A DNA stretch of 39,765 nt from Syntrophorhabdaceae bacterium (GTDB lineage Bacteria; Desulfobacterota; Syntrophorhabdia; Syntrophorhabdales; Syntrophorhabdaceae), in assembly GCA_036504895.1 (NCBI GenBank), contig DASXUJ010000029.1:1-39765 (forward strand). Direction: 5' to 3'. The position numbers and the translations under genes were made by a program. Positions 2,758 to 15,306 of the stretch are shown here, one piece after another. The notes beneath the pieces are model-generated. The model saw only the letters and a program-made list of their open reading frames with translations, was not told the origin of the DNA and ran no database searches. Numbering within the stretch: the stretch's first letter is position 1; each line of letters begins with the position of its first letter.

Positions 2758-3237
2758 TTACGTACAGGCAGGATCATTCCCGGGGGTGCTCTCCCCTTCC
2801 CCGGAAAGGAGCTCCTCCAGAATCCCGGCGGCATCCTTTATGAAGGCGGCGCAGAGCTGTTCACGAAGATCGTGTGTTTTTGCGAAGAGGAGTCCCTCCG
2901 GGGTGCTCATATCACACCCGAGCAGCTCCCTGCATGTGACCGTATAATGGCGACGGGCGAAACGGTCCAGGAATGCAGCGGCGAGGCGGTTGGTTCTCTC
3001 GACGGATTCTTTGTCGTCCGCTCTTCTTTTGCCGTAGGCGAGGCCGATAATCATCATGGCGCCCGTCACCGCCCCGCATGTCCCGCCCGTGCGTGCTATG
3101 CCGCCGCCGAATGCCGCCGCGATCCCAAGGGCCTCATCCTCCTCAAGCCCGTAGGAGGGGCCAAAAGCCCTCGCGATTGCCTGGGAGCAGTTGAACCCCT
3201 CTCTAAAGGTCTGCAGCGCGCGATCTATTCTATCCAT
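2758..3237 (-). CDS. C_GCAxxG_C_C family redox-type protein
   Basis: Protein of 159 aa matching the C_GCAxxG_C_C family, named after its Cys pattern. Family members are small, probably redox-active or metal-binding proteins often found beside oxidoreductases or transporters in anaerobes; the biochemical role is not established. Visible Cys are C17 (GFNCSQAI), C54 (GGTCGAVTGA, the C-GAxxG core), C102 and C108 (TCRELLGC) and C129. I place the start at ATG 3237, with GGGAGGGG just upstream; the open frame extends 36 codons further through repetitive DNA, which I reject. No signal peptide. It is the first gene of a likely two-gene unit with the aspartate decarboxylase. Confidence 0.85.
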   Translation of the reverse strand: MDRIDRALQTFREGFNCSQAIARAFGPSYGLEEDEALGIAAAFGGGIARTGGTCGAVTGAMMIIGLAYGKRRADDKESVERTNRLAAAFLDRFARRHYTVTCRELLGCDMSTPEGLLFAKTHDLREQLCAAFIKDAAGILEELLSGEGESTPGNDPACT

Positions 3238-3261
3238 TTCCCCTCCCGGCAATAGTAGCTT

Positions 3262-3351
3262 GTGTAAATCGTGTGATGCGTGTGATGCGTGTAATACGGA
3301 AACCGTAAAACGTGTAATCGGAAAACGAGAATGCGTGTGAGGCATACAAGC
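3262..3351. repeat. Degenerate CGTGTGATG / CGTGTAAT simple-sequence repeats
   Basis: A 90-base stretch built of variants of CGTGTGATG, CGTGTAATACGG and CCGTAAAACG. Similar short blocks recur between the three hairpin repeats (3461-3500, 3611-3640) and, as GCGTGTAATGCGTGTG on the minus strand, near 7478-7503 beside another copy of the hairpin repeat. Confidence 0.6.
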
Positions 3352-3370: not shown

Positions 3371-3458
3371 GCGTCTCCTAGCCCGCACCGCGGGCGAGGA
3401 GGGGGGGCTCGGCCGGCTTATGCCGGCTGAGGGGGCGACGTGAGCCCCTATAAATGGC
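3371..3458 (+). repeat. Three-hairpin intergenic repeat, copy 1
   Basis: Copy of an 85-90 base element with three predicted stem-loops. The first is GCCCGC-ACC-GCGGGC. The second is CTCGGCCGGC-TTAT-GCCGGCTGAG. The third is GGGGC-GACGTGA-GCCCC, followed by TATAAAT. Same orientation as copies 2 and 3. Confidence 0.8.
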
Positions 3459-3521
3459 GCGTGTGATGCGGTAAAGCGTGTGTGCGTTGAACCGTAAAAA
3501 ACGAAATGAAACACGTCCTCC

Positions 3522-3609
3522 CGCGTCAGCCTAGCCCGCACCGCGGGCGAGAAGGGGAGGCTCGGCCGGCTTATGCCGGCTGAGGGGGCGACGTGAGCCC
3601 CTATAAAAT
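3522..3609 (+). repeat. Three-hairpin intergenic repeat, copy 2
   Basis: Nearly identical to copy 1, with the same middle stem CTCGGCCGGC/GCCGGCTGAG. It differs in the purine run (GAGAAGGGGAGG) and in the flanks. It is separated from copy 1 by about 63 bases rich in CGTGTG-type motifs. Confidence 0.8.
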
Positions 3610-3675
3610 GCACGTGTGATGCATTCATACGTGTATGCGTTGAAGCCAAAAAATAGAAAAGAGACAAATCCTCCT

Positions 3676-3775
3676 GCGTCAGCCCAGCCCGCACAGCGGG
3701 CGAGAGGGGGAGGCTCCGATAGCTTTTGCTATCGGAGGGGGCGACGTGAGCCCCTATAGTGGCAGCCCCTATAAT
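3676..3775 (+). repeat. Three-hairpin intergenic repeat, copy 3, with duplicated tail
   Basis: The first hairpin is GCCCGC-ACA-GCGGGC. The middle stem is changed on both arms to the perfect CTCCGATAGC-TTTT-GCTATCGGAG. The third hairpin, GGGGC-GACGTGA-GCCCC, is unchanged. The tail AGCCCCTATAGTGGC is followed directly by a second copy, AGCCCCTATAATGGC. Together with copies 1 and 2 it fills most of the gene-free stretch 3238-3832. Confidence 0.8.
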
Positions 3776-3778
3776 GGC

Positions 3779-3812
3779 AAAAACCCGCCCGGGCCATCGG
3801 CCCCGGGCGGGT
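3779..3812 (-). terminator. Intrinsic terminator of the Tim44-domain gene
   Basis: Perfect 10-bp stem CCCGCCCGGG/CCCGGGCGGG (3784-3793 and 3802-3811). On the minus strand it is followed by TTTTT, 20-50 bases past the stop codon at 3833. Confidence 0.85.
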
Positions 3813-3832: not shown

Positions 3833-4828
3833 TTAGTAATCGCCCTCCTGAGAAATCCCGGCGAGTGTCCAGCTCCTGTCGCCCACCCTCCTCGTGAAGG
3901 TCCAGTATTCAAGGAATTTTACCGGATCGGTCGTGCTTCCGGATATGGTCTGGTTGGTTGTCTCGTCCACCACGTAATCGAGAAGGCTCGCAAGGAACTT
4001 TACCGTGATGAATTCTTCGCCCTGGTCCTGCACCGCATCGACGATCTCCACCTGCCGGACGGCGATGTTTTCGAGGCGGTTGAACTGCTTGTTTGCCGCG
4101 TACCTGTTCACGTCCTCCTGGAAGGTAGTGAGCATCTGGCCCGTGAGAAGCTGACGCACGGGACTCAGGTCTCTCTTCGTCCATGCGCTCTGGATCTTGA
4201 AGAACATGTCTTCCACGTTTTCCTTGAACCGGACTTCGTCAAAAGAAGGGTCCGACTGGCTGATATAGCGCAGGCCGTCATAGACATTGTCCGATCGCGC
4301 GGGGGGCGGTACGGAGGCCGATCCCGGCAGGGGTTCGCTGTACCCCTGCGCATATGTCGTCCCGAAGGTCTCCCCTCCCGTGCCGCTGTACTGCATGGCC
4401 CGTTTATTCCTAAAATGCTTCCATACAAAGTAGATTACCGCCAGGATGATGATGAGGAACAGGAAGTCGCCTATTCCGAATCCGCCGCCGCCTCCCCAGC
4501 CGCCTCCGCCTCCGGCGTATCCGCGTCCGCCGAAAAGCATGCTGCCCAGCATACCGCCTACCATACCGCCGCCAAGACCGGCGAGAAAGCTCCGTCCGGC
4601 GGAAGGCCGCGCCATGCTTGGGGCGGGCGCCGTGGGCTGGGTCCGCTGATAACTTCCTGAGGGAGAGGTCGACCTGTAAGAGCCGCTCGATCTCGAACCC
4701 GTGCTGCCGGATGACCGGCCTCCTCCCGCCCGTGCGAGGGCGAGGGATTCCATACCGAGGAACAAAAGAAAGAAGACCGCTACTCCTAGAGTCAGGAGTT
4801 TGAACCGATGATTTATCGAATGATCCAT
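3833..4828 (-). CDS. Tim44-like domain membrane protein
   Basis: Protein of 331 aa with an N-terminal hydrophobic segment (about 12-32, FKLLTLGVAVFFLLFL...) that looks like a signal peptide or anchor. A Gly/Ser/Pro-rich region of about 100 residues follows, including GGGMVGGMLGSMLFGG and GGGGGWGGGGGFG, then a second membrane segment (about 119-137, FLFLIIILAVIYFVWKHF). The C-terminal half (about 185-331) resembles the Tim44/TimA ligand-binding fold found in mitochondrial Tim44 and in bacterial membrane proteins. Bacterial members are mostly uncharacterised; association with the inner membrane is inferred. It is a single gene with its own terminator. A possible promoter (TTGACT at 4934-4939, minus strand) lies about 100 bases upstream. 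Confidence 0.8.
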   Translation of the reverse strand: MDHSINHRFKLLTLGVAVFFLLFLGMESLALARAGGGRSSGSTGSRSSGSYRSTSPSGSYQRTQPTAPAPSMARPSAGRSFLAGLGGGMVGGMLGSMLFGGRGYAGGGGGWGGGGGFGIGDFLFLIIILAVIYFVWKHFRNKRAMQYSGTGGETFGTTYAQGYSEPLPGSASVPPPARSDNVYDGLRYISQSDPSFDEVRFKENVEDMFFKIQSAWTKRDLSPVRQLLTGQMLTTFQEDVNRYAANKQFNRLENIAVRQVEIVDAVQDQGEEFITVKFLASLLDYVVDETTNQTISGSTTDPVKFLEYWTFTRRVGDRSWTLAGISQEGDY

Positions 4829-7121: not shown

Positions 7122-7187
7122 GCGGGGCGGGGCTGGATTCTTCCCCAACTCCGCGTTGCCTGCGTCGTCCCACGATTTCGACGTACA

Positions 7188-7266
7188 ATTTAATGGGGCT
7201 TGCGTCGCCCCCTCCACGGGCAGAGCCCGCGGAGCCTTCCCCTCTCGCTCGCCGTGCGAGCTAACT
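7188..7266 (-). repeat. Three-hairpin intergenic repeat, copy 4
   Basis: Read on the minus strand: GCTCGC-ACG-GCGAGC, then CTCCGCGGGC-TCT-GCCCGTGGAG, then GGGGC-GACGCAA-GCCCC and CATTAAA. Stem sequences differ from copies 1-3 but pair equally well. It follows, on the same strand, the GTAC-hairpin module at 7300-7390. Confidence 0.8.
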
Positions 7267-7299
7267 CACGCCCCTCATTTTAATAAGGGCGTAATTCTT

Positions 7300-7390
7300 T
7301 TAATCCGCCGCCGATTGCATCAGTGGATAGCCTGCTTTCCACTACGCCTTCACCGCGCTCCTCCTTGTCGCCTTGATTTGGGAAAGACTG
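7300..7390 (-). repeat. GTAC-hairpin repeat module, copy on minus strand
   Basis: On the minus strand it contains AAATCAAGGCGACAAGGAGG, then GGCGTAGTGG and a complementary CCACTGATG. It is a diverged relative of the modules at 15081-15190 and 35759-35882. It forms a composite with hairpin repeat copy 4. The stretch 7122-7595 otherwise holds only CGTGTAAT-type simple repeats (7478-7503) and a promoter. Confidence 0.6.
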
Positions 7391-14511: not shown

Positions 14512-14988
14512 ATGGATACAAAAGCAGTTCAGGATTATTACCCGGACCAATACGCCCATTGCTTCGGATGCGGCCGCCTCAATCACCAGGGCCTCAAAAT
14601 AAAGAGCTTTTGGGATGGAGAAGAGAGCGTCTGCCGTTACTTACCCGATGCCGCCTATTCAGGAGGTTATCCCGGAAATGTGTACGGCGGCCTTATTGCG
14701 TCTCTCATGGATTGCCACAGCTCGGGCACGGCCTCAGCCGCAAAAGTGCGGGCCGAGGGGTTGCCCCTCAACGAGCAGACCATCTCCCGCTTCGTCACCG
14801 CATCGATCAAAGTAGATTTCATAAAACCCACCCCCATAGGAAAAGAGCTCGAAATCCGCGCAAAAGTAACAGAGATAAAAGGCAGAAAAGTGCTCCTGAG
14901 CCTCACCCTCTCCGCAGAAGGAGAAGTATGCGCCAAAGGGGAATCGGTGATGGTGGAAATACCGGAGAAGAAAGTCTCTAGTCTCTAG
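14512..14988 (+). CDS. PaaI-type hotdog-fold thioesterase
   Basis: Hotdog thioesterase of 158 aa, likely hydrolysing acyl-CoA or aryl-CoA esters in the cytosol. The N-terminal HCFGCGRLNHQGL (about 16-28) is the HxFGCGxxNxxGL signature of one PaaI-like subgroup. The hotdog helix region NVYGGLIASLMDCHSSG (about 56-72) contains the catalytic acidic residue position (Asp67), followed by TASIKVDFIKPTPIG. I start at ATG 14512 because AAAGGAG precedes it; an upstream in-frame start at 14485 lacks such a site. The last four codons (VSSL) and the stop lie inside a GTCTCTA tandem repeat, so the extreme C-terminus was created by the repeat. Confidence 0.85.
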   Translation: MDTKAVQDYYPDQYAHCFGCGRLNHQGLKIKSFWDGEESVCRYLPDAAYSGGYPGNVYGGLIASLMDCHSSGTASAAKVRAEGLPLNEQTISRFVTASIKVDFIKPTPIGKELEIRAKVTEIKGRKVLLSLTLSAEGEVCAKGESVMVEIPEKKVSSL

Positions 14989-15004
14989 TCGCTAGTCGCT
15001 AGTC
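14974..15004. repeat. Seven-base tandem repeat (GTCTCTA x2, GTCGCTA x2)
   Basis: Four direct 7-base units ending in GTC, overlapping the 3' end of the thioesterase gene. A related GTCGTTAGTCGAC follows at 15019-15031. Confidence 0.8.
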
Positions 15005-15080
15005 AACAGCAGAGGGGGCAGTCGTTAGTCGACGGGAAAAGAGTCATGTGCGGTGGACTTGCTCCAATATATACTGTGTC

Positions 15081-15190
15081 GATTTCTTTCGCAGATTGAG
15101 GCGACTAGGAGGAGCCGACGCAGCCAACAGTAGGCGCTTTAGGCGGCGTACCTGAAGGTACATCGAGGAGCGCGACAAGGACGGCAACCC
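15081..15190 (+). repeat. GTAC-hairpin repeat module, joined to hairpin repeat copy 5
   Basis: Contains GCAGATTGAGGCGACTAGGA, GGAGCCGACGCAG and the small hairpin GGCGTACC-TGAA-GGTACATCG, then GAGGAGCGCGACAAGGACGG. It matches the modules at 35759-35882 (plus) and 7300-7390 (minus). It fills most of the gene-free stretch 14989-15306 together with copy 5. Confidence 0.7.
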
Positions 15191-15200
15191 CTGTCCAAGG

Positions 15201-15281
15201 GTCAGAAGCGAGCTTCTGCGAGCCGAGGGGGAGGCTCCTACGGCTTTGCCGTTGGAGGGGGCGACGCAAGCCCCATAAATA
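15201..15281 (+). repeat. Three-hairpin intergenic repeat, copy 5
   Basis: The first hairpin is altered (CAGAAG-CGAG-CTTCTG). The middle stem is CTCCTACGGC-TTT-GCCGTTGGAG and the third hairpin GGGGC-GACGCAA-GCCCC, followed by ATAAAT. It sits 3' of both the thioesterase (+) and comM (-) genes. Confidence 0.8.
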
Positions 15282-15306
15282 GCTGCGGAAGAATCCGGCA
15301 GAGTGC

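Follow-up and report, generated by a model that had tools for sequence, protein, structure and literature searches.

A dispersed, structured intergenic repeat of Syntrophorhabdaceae, most likely a non-autonomous mobile element read into mRNA

Copies in the window

The window (the whole stretch of DNA that was analysed, 39,765 nucleotides from a Syntrophorhabdaceae bacterium) carries five copies of a three-hairpin repeat, all of them at the places and on the strands given in the original prediction. Three form a direct array between two minus-strand genes, and the gap that separates this array from the end of the Tim44-like gene holds a terminator-like inverted repeat, which lies outside the repeat element. 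The features are as follows.

2758-3237, - strand: gene, C_GCAxxG_C_C
3374-3764, + strand: direct three-copy array with a 153-bp period
3374-3458, + strand: copy 1, 92.0 bits; stem 1 3381-3395, stem 2 3408-3431, stem 3 3432-3448, tail 3449-3456
3527-3611, + strand: copy 2, 96.4 bits; stem 1 3534-3548, stem 2 3561-3584, stem 3 3585-3601, tail 3602-3609
3680-3764, + strand: copy 3, 94.0 bits; stem 1 3687-3701, stem 2 3714-3737, stem 3 3738-3754, tail 3755-3762
3786-3811, - strand: GC-rich inverted repeat with a T run after it, terminator-like as read from the sequence
3833-4828, - strand: gene, Tim44-like
7185-7268, - strand: copy 4, 95.1 bits; stem 1 7261-7247, stem 2 7234-7212, stem 3 7211-7195, tail 7194-7187
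15201-15284, + strand: copy 5, 60.0 bits; stem 1 (tandem G.A kind) 15208-15223, stem 2 15235-15257, stem 3 15258-15274, tail 15275-15282

The four stem pairs quoted in the prediction read and pair as it stated. Pairing across the five copies also holds, with the qualification that stem 1 of the copy at 15201 (GCGAGC-TTCT-GCGAGC) contains tandem G.A pairs and is not plain Watson-Crick like the other four.

Directly upstream of copies, GTCTCTA.. heptads and GCGTGTGATGCG.. units stand in tandem (window 14970-15010 and about 3260-3350), and CACCTTT and GGAGAGC heptads occupy the equivalent place upstream of copies in other genomes. Arrays of a TAACTGA heptad are described for Beggiatoaceae in the available text of PMC4679880.

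Fold, covariation and ends of the element

A covariance model was built on an alignment of 41 insert-free copies from the window's own genome. With this model 89 copies were found in the 4.35-Mb genome (E <= 0.001), and blastn with 3371-3775 as query gave 56 matches there. The exact stem-3 20-mer, GAGGGGGCGACGYRAGCCCC, has 60 matches and the same pattern reversed has none. The earlier observation is therefore confirmed, and the family is larger than was first seen. Two further sets were aligned: 90 model matches from stretches of the own genome, and 118 distinct copies from other genomes. The latter come from 100 (L101-L200) of the 120 loci listed in a scan of genome contigs, and these were picked by the exact stem-3 20-mer, so stem 3 is constant there by selection.

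Each copy comprises three hairpins with a core of about 70 nt, and RNAalifold, given only the alignment of 41 copies, predicted the same 21 pairs. In that alignment 98.1% of the cells pair, eight pairs have changed on both sides, and double-change cells number 86 against 24 in shuffled alignments. Among the 90 own copies 96.9% of the cells are paired, with 184 double-change cells against 55.7 in shuffles, and all three stems covary. Among the 118 copies elsewhere, from the matches listed, the values are 94.1% and 235 against 56.1. The shuffle control can be inflated by relatedness among copies; slid controls retain that relatedness, and in these 36-58% of the cells paired (at most 58% for the 90 own copies). 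Compensatory changes thus extend over the whole structure, beyond both kinds of control, as expected of a structured RNA. The prediction had held that an absence of further copies, or stems that stop pairing when more are aligned, would count against it; neither was found, and its claim of selection for structure is strongly supported by the covariation, the RNAalifold fold and the pair classes of stem 1.

In stem 2 the CTC/GAG foot is constant, and the upper part varies freely and always pairs; stem 3, GGGGC-GACGYRA-GCCCC, forms the constant 3' end. Elsewhere stem 1 first seemed broken in many copies (AGCGAGCACGGCGAGCG), where the inner two pairs are in fact G.A and A.G. Both inner pairs are Watson-Crick or wobble in 74 own copies, tandem G.A in 2, of another kind in 4 and gapped in 10; the corresponding counts for the copies elsewhere, among the matches listed, are 59, 42, 3 and 16. 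Stem 1 elsewhere is therefore either Watson-Crick or tandem G.A and almost nothing else. An unpaired linker containing GGAGG, AGGGGGAGG, lies between stems 1 and 2, as read from the alignments.

The strand that folds can be told from the mismatches, since a G-U pair on one strand is an A-C pair on the other. G-U cells outnumber A-C cells: the own genome has 71 against 24, and the copies elsewhere have 56 against 12 (among the matches listed). When only unique stem-2 sequences are counted the ratios are 31 to 9 (p 7e-4) and, among the matches listed elsewhere, 27 to 3 (p 8e-6). This excess shows that the plus strand is the one whose fold is kept. Tandem G.A stems are common in RNA, and tandem G.A and G.T occur in single-stranded DNA too. 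The folded plus strand fits both alike and does not tell which of the two is the folded molecule.

Outside the core, an additional variable 5' hairpin was considered for the own copies and rejected, as the 60 nt upstream have a mean z of -0.48 against -0.39 for a control stretch (81 copies). The same 60 nt in copies elsewhere carry a weak folding signal, with a mean z of -1.04 against -0.20 (91 copies among the matches listed); copies near a locus end were dropped from both sets. The 5' flank pairs weakly with the 3' tail (of 2000 permutations, 123 and 63 did as well), and no such pairing is claimed.

Directly after ..GAGCCCC the motif WWTAATWG was found in two independent sets (82 of 90 own copies and 91 of 120 elsewhere, after removal of duplicates and of copies in which no stem 3 or AGC start could be recognised), and information is near zero from +9 on. 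At a conserved stop codon in one genus (g5) the element adjoins the stop codon in two genomes, G017 and G028, and the adjoining bases belong to the gene; WWTAATWG is therefore taken to belong to the site, and stem 3 to be the end of the element. The two junctions differ from each other, and that of G028, TATATACTG, is a poor match to WWTAATWG. On inspection by eye, stem 3 followed by WWTAATWG lacks the T run of an intrinsic terminator, the element lacks GTTRRRY, which is the motif of integron attC sites, and the TATAAT tail has no -35 at the right distance for it to serve as a promoter -10; these candidates were rejected.

The 5' side is variable. In several own copies stems 1 and 2 are separated by an insert, ACCAACAGTAGGCGCC.., and a CGGGTACCC module is present in Syntrophorhabdus-type copies. 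Up to 48 of 275 distinct copies of hairpin 3 had no match in a search for the stem-2 module, an upper bound that includes some full copies whose linker differs from the search text. Partial tail units of about 25 nt recur after some copies. A constant 3' hairpin that is immediately followed by a motif, a truncated or modular 5' side including 17-nt partial tail units, and a folded plus strand would be consistent with a retro-type element, in which an RNA with a constant 3' end is copied back into AT-rich targets and leaves 5'-truncated copies. The direct tail units fit slippage equally well, however, and we consider such an origin highly improbable.

Setting, distribution and mobility

The copies are largely intergenic, overlapping a called gene in 3 of 90 cases in the own genome and in 19 of 120 among the matches listed elsewhere, with a gene caller that was trained on 14 window ORFs and is less suited to other phyla, and with 6 own and 30 other copies at locus edges excluded. 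Many lie in the short gap that separates a stop codon from the ribosome binding site after it, and some between convergent or divergent genes. At sites between tandem genes, own copies are co-oriented with the genes in 24 cases and opposite in 12, which is not significant alone (p 0.065). Elsewhere, among the matches listed, the counts are 51 and 12, and both sets together give 75 against 24 (p 2.8e-7). Neighbouring copies no more than 400 bp apart have the same orientation in 39 of 39 cases (25/25 and 14/14, the sets including the matches listed elsewhere). At one locus (C8:20391-20780 of the own genome) a gene's 3' end and the element seem to have been duplicated together in tandem; some arrays may thus expand through duplications that take in gene ends.

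No recurrent family was found among 188 neighbour genes, where clusters had three members at most. A transposase-like neighbour was not seen in the own genome either, as 45 loci gave only the translated repeat, with other groups of up to six loci. A version of the element carrying an open reading frame was also sought, and only two gapped half-pairs, of 103 and 160 nt, were found.

These data bear on a second reading, in which the repeat is a cis-acting leader or intercistronic RNA selected for the stability, processing or translation of the neighbouring mRNA. The folded plus strand, the excess of co-oriented sites, often right before a ribosome binding site, the tandem G.A stem and the unpaired GGAGG linker are all in keeping with it. 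The neighbouring genes are unrelated, however, copies lie between convergent and divergent genes too, they occur in tandem arrays, their positions are not kept between relatives, and 12 of 37 genomes of the family f1 have no exact match; furthermore, tandem G.A is known from single-stranded DNA as well. A cis-acting role as the reason for the family is rather unlikely, and a structured RNA, one of the alternatives in the original prediction, is still a candidate in view of the folded plus strand and of the tendency of copies to share the orientation of the genes on either side.

The exact stem-3 20-mer was found in 29 of 60 relatives, and the reversed control in none. By family, 25 of 37 f1 genomes have it (counting the own genome), as do all 4 of f2, but none of the 3 of f3 and none of the 16 from other families of the phylum, which places the repeat in two families within the order of the window. 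When the phylum was sampled more widely, 12 of 395 genomes had the 20-mer; 11 belong to f1, and the remaining one, from elsewhere, has a single match. The scan of named genome contigs yielded at least 120 loci. Of the 120 listed, 51 belong to at least 12 MAG assemblies titled Nitrospirae, Nitrospiria, Nitrospira or Troglogloeales, several of which have many copies on different contigs, and others are titled Deltaproteobacteria, Syntrophus, Syntrophobacterales or Syntrophorhabdus. This listed set partly coincides with the f1 relatives, as judged by identical match places: Syntrophus sp. SW.010, of the window's genus (G428 = G002), and Syntrophorhabdus sp. PtaU1.Bin058 (G440 = G031) are common to both. 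One Acidobacteria and one Bdellovibrionales record, with one locus each among the matches listed, may be mis-binned. The 20-mer had no exact match on viral contigs, and blastn gave no match on plasmids or phages, so no vehicle was seen.

Rfam release 15 had no match to the window at gathering score, the best lenient matches being at chance level, and 18 carrier loci gave only three tRNAs at gathering score. A literature search of limited coverage retrieved no description of the repeat, and exact 17-mers had no match in the papers searched.

Evidence for movement comes from orthologous sites. At the conserved g5 stop codon there are two tandem copies in G017 and a single one in G028, against none in the eight other members examined (G006, G022, G026, G030, G032, G034, G035 and G036). 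Where the own genome has a copy, none of 17 orthologous loci in relatives does (16 at the Tim44-like gene and one at another site). At a second g5 site, L055, G028 has a copy, and G022 and G035 have a different structured repeat. This pattern of presence and absence at orthologous sites is that of a mobile element. A clean empty site with both flanks alignable was not obtained, as the intergenic flanks are too diverged.

The different repeat at L055 in G022 and G035 represents a second structured family, GATYGAGGCGGCRAGGATGAGGCGACGCAGGCG.., with an internal GTACGTCCGTAC-type hairpin, and text resembling GATYGAGGCGGCRAGGATGAGGCGACGCAGGCG.. was seen by eye beside window copies (about 7330-7385, - strand; about 15090-15200, + strand). 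In G028 the L055 locus (1715-2082) holds another dispersed repeat, of which a stretch of about 32 nt (1840-1873) is matched many times on both strands in g5 genomes.

Candidate mobilisers and interpretation

The original prediction offered, as the alternative to a structured RNA, REP/BIME-like substrates of REP-associated transposases, that is, short palindromes with a 5' GTAG whose single strands are cut and joined by a Y1 HUH enzyme (RAYT, TnpA-REP). Its view of a dispersed, REP-like intergenic family is strongly supported, and a dispersed, intergenic and structured family would suit a RAYT substrate. GTAG, scored as GT[AG]G, immediately precedes stem 1 in 46 of the 85 own copies; the own genome has seven Y1_Tnp matches (PF01797), and Y1_Tnp was found in 26 of 34 named carriers among the matches listed. 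Against this, GT[AG]G precedes stem 1 in only 5 of 101 copies elsewhere (among the matches listed), and neighbouring copies are never inverted. The RAYT gene proposed as a check was also not supported by the seven own Y1 loci, since no copy lies within 1.5 kb of any (0 by regex and none significant with the covariance model, which gave one sub-threshold match of 12.5 bits at locus L013). The six longer own Y1 proteins (L009-L013 and L015) are 314-333 aa long, and five show HTH or DnaA_C-like matches, mostly weak ones, at the C-terminal side; subclasses with a large C-terminal domain are, in the available text of PMC6006769, not associated with REPs.

The distribution of the gene does not follow that of the repeat. 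Two copy-rich genomes, G005 (99% complete, 37 exact matches) and G037 (97%, 40), have no PF01797 match, four others (G022, G030, G032 and G035) have Y1_Tnp and no exact 20-mer match, and 8 of the 34 named carriers among the matches listed lack Y1_Tnp. With orientation, GTAG, the Y1 neighbourhood and the Y1-free rich genomes all contrary to it, membership of the REP/RAYT system is largely refuted, and we regard it as improbable. An IS91-type rolling-circle element was rejected as well, as the Y2 HUH transposase (Y2_Tnp, PF04986) is present in only 5 of 29 genomes and absent from the own genome, G005 and G037. Neither a recognised RAYT/IS200 enzyme nor IS91 accounts for the family; it may have been mobilised in the past by a gene since lost.

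The family is a dispersed structured intergenic repeat, and the most likely explanation, to which we assign a probability of roughly 0.55, is a non-autonomous mobile element with a three-hairpin plus strand that is spread in trans and read through into mRNA. A trans-acting enzyme would recognise the folded single strand, chiefly by stem 3, and would join the 3' end of the element to a WWTAATWG-like target, which would leave the 5' side free for truncation or for other modules. Arrays would then grow by tandem duplication. As copies between genes tend to point in the direction of those genes, they are probably transcribed and may act as a passenger RNA structure in the mRNA, affecting its spacing and stability. 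Tentatively, the family could even represent an undescribed class of mobile element, defined by a folded single-strand substrate, a constant 3' hairpin, a WWTAATWG target and a trans-acting enzyme other than a recognised Y1 or Y2 HUH transposase, which crosses phyla as a portable intercistronic RNA structure and whose stem switches between Watson-Crick and tandem G.A pairing.

In IS200/IS605-derived MITEs a hairpin lies near one end, with a short target motif immediately next to it, and the repeat resembles them in both respects; it differs in that some copy-rich genomes lack Y1_Tnp and that no autonomous element with these ends was found. BOX and RIME are mosaic intergenic repeats whose modules are combined in varying order. 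BIMEs are likewise described as intergenic modules in varying order, but the present family has direct arrays only, a constant 3' module and cross-phylum identity in a 20-nt core. Covarying stems are shared with the RNA families of Rfam (release 15), none of which it matches.

The available text on REPs describes a palindrome of 20-50 nt after a conserved tetranucleotide, usually GTAG, with the rayt gene flanked by inverted REPs (PMC8266576, PMC2817692). REPs and REPtrons are likewise short palindromic intergenic elements with tens to hundreds of copies, a single-strand fold and a patchy distribution between lineages, as far as the same sources and PMC6006769 describe them. The present family, in contrast, has three hairpins with a constant stem 3 and stem-2 foot, does not conserve GTAG, never forms inverted pairs, reaches high copy number without Y1_Tnp, and is a single sequence family common to an order of the former Deltaproteobacteria and to Nitrospirota. 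It behaves like a REP, as a dispersed folded intergenic element, but is not filed as one.

The repeat is thus well defined and structured, with strong covariation and no Rfam match, and most of the lineages that carry it are uncultured. Genomes with many copies and no Y1 transposase offer a direct test of what else spreads REP-like elements, and copies that lie co-oriented between genes allow the effect of a passenger RNA to be measured.
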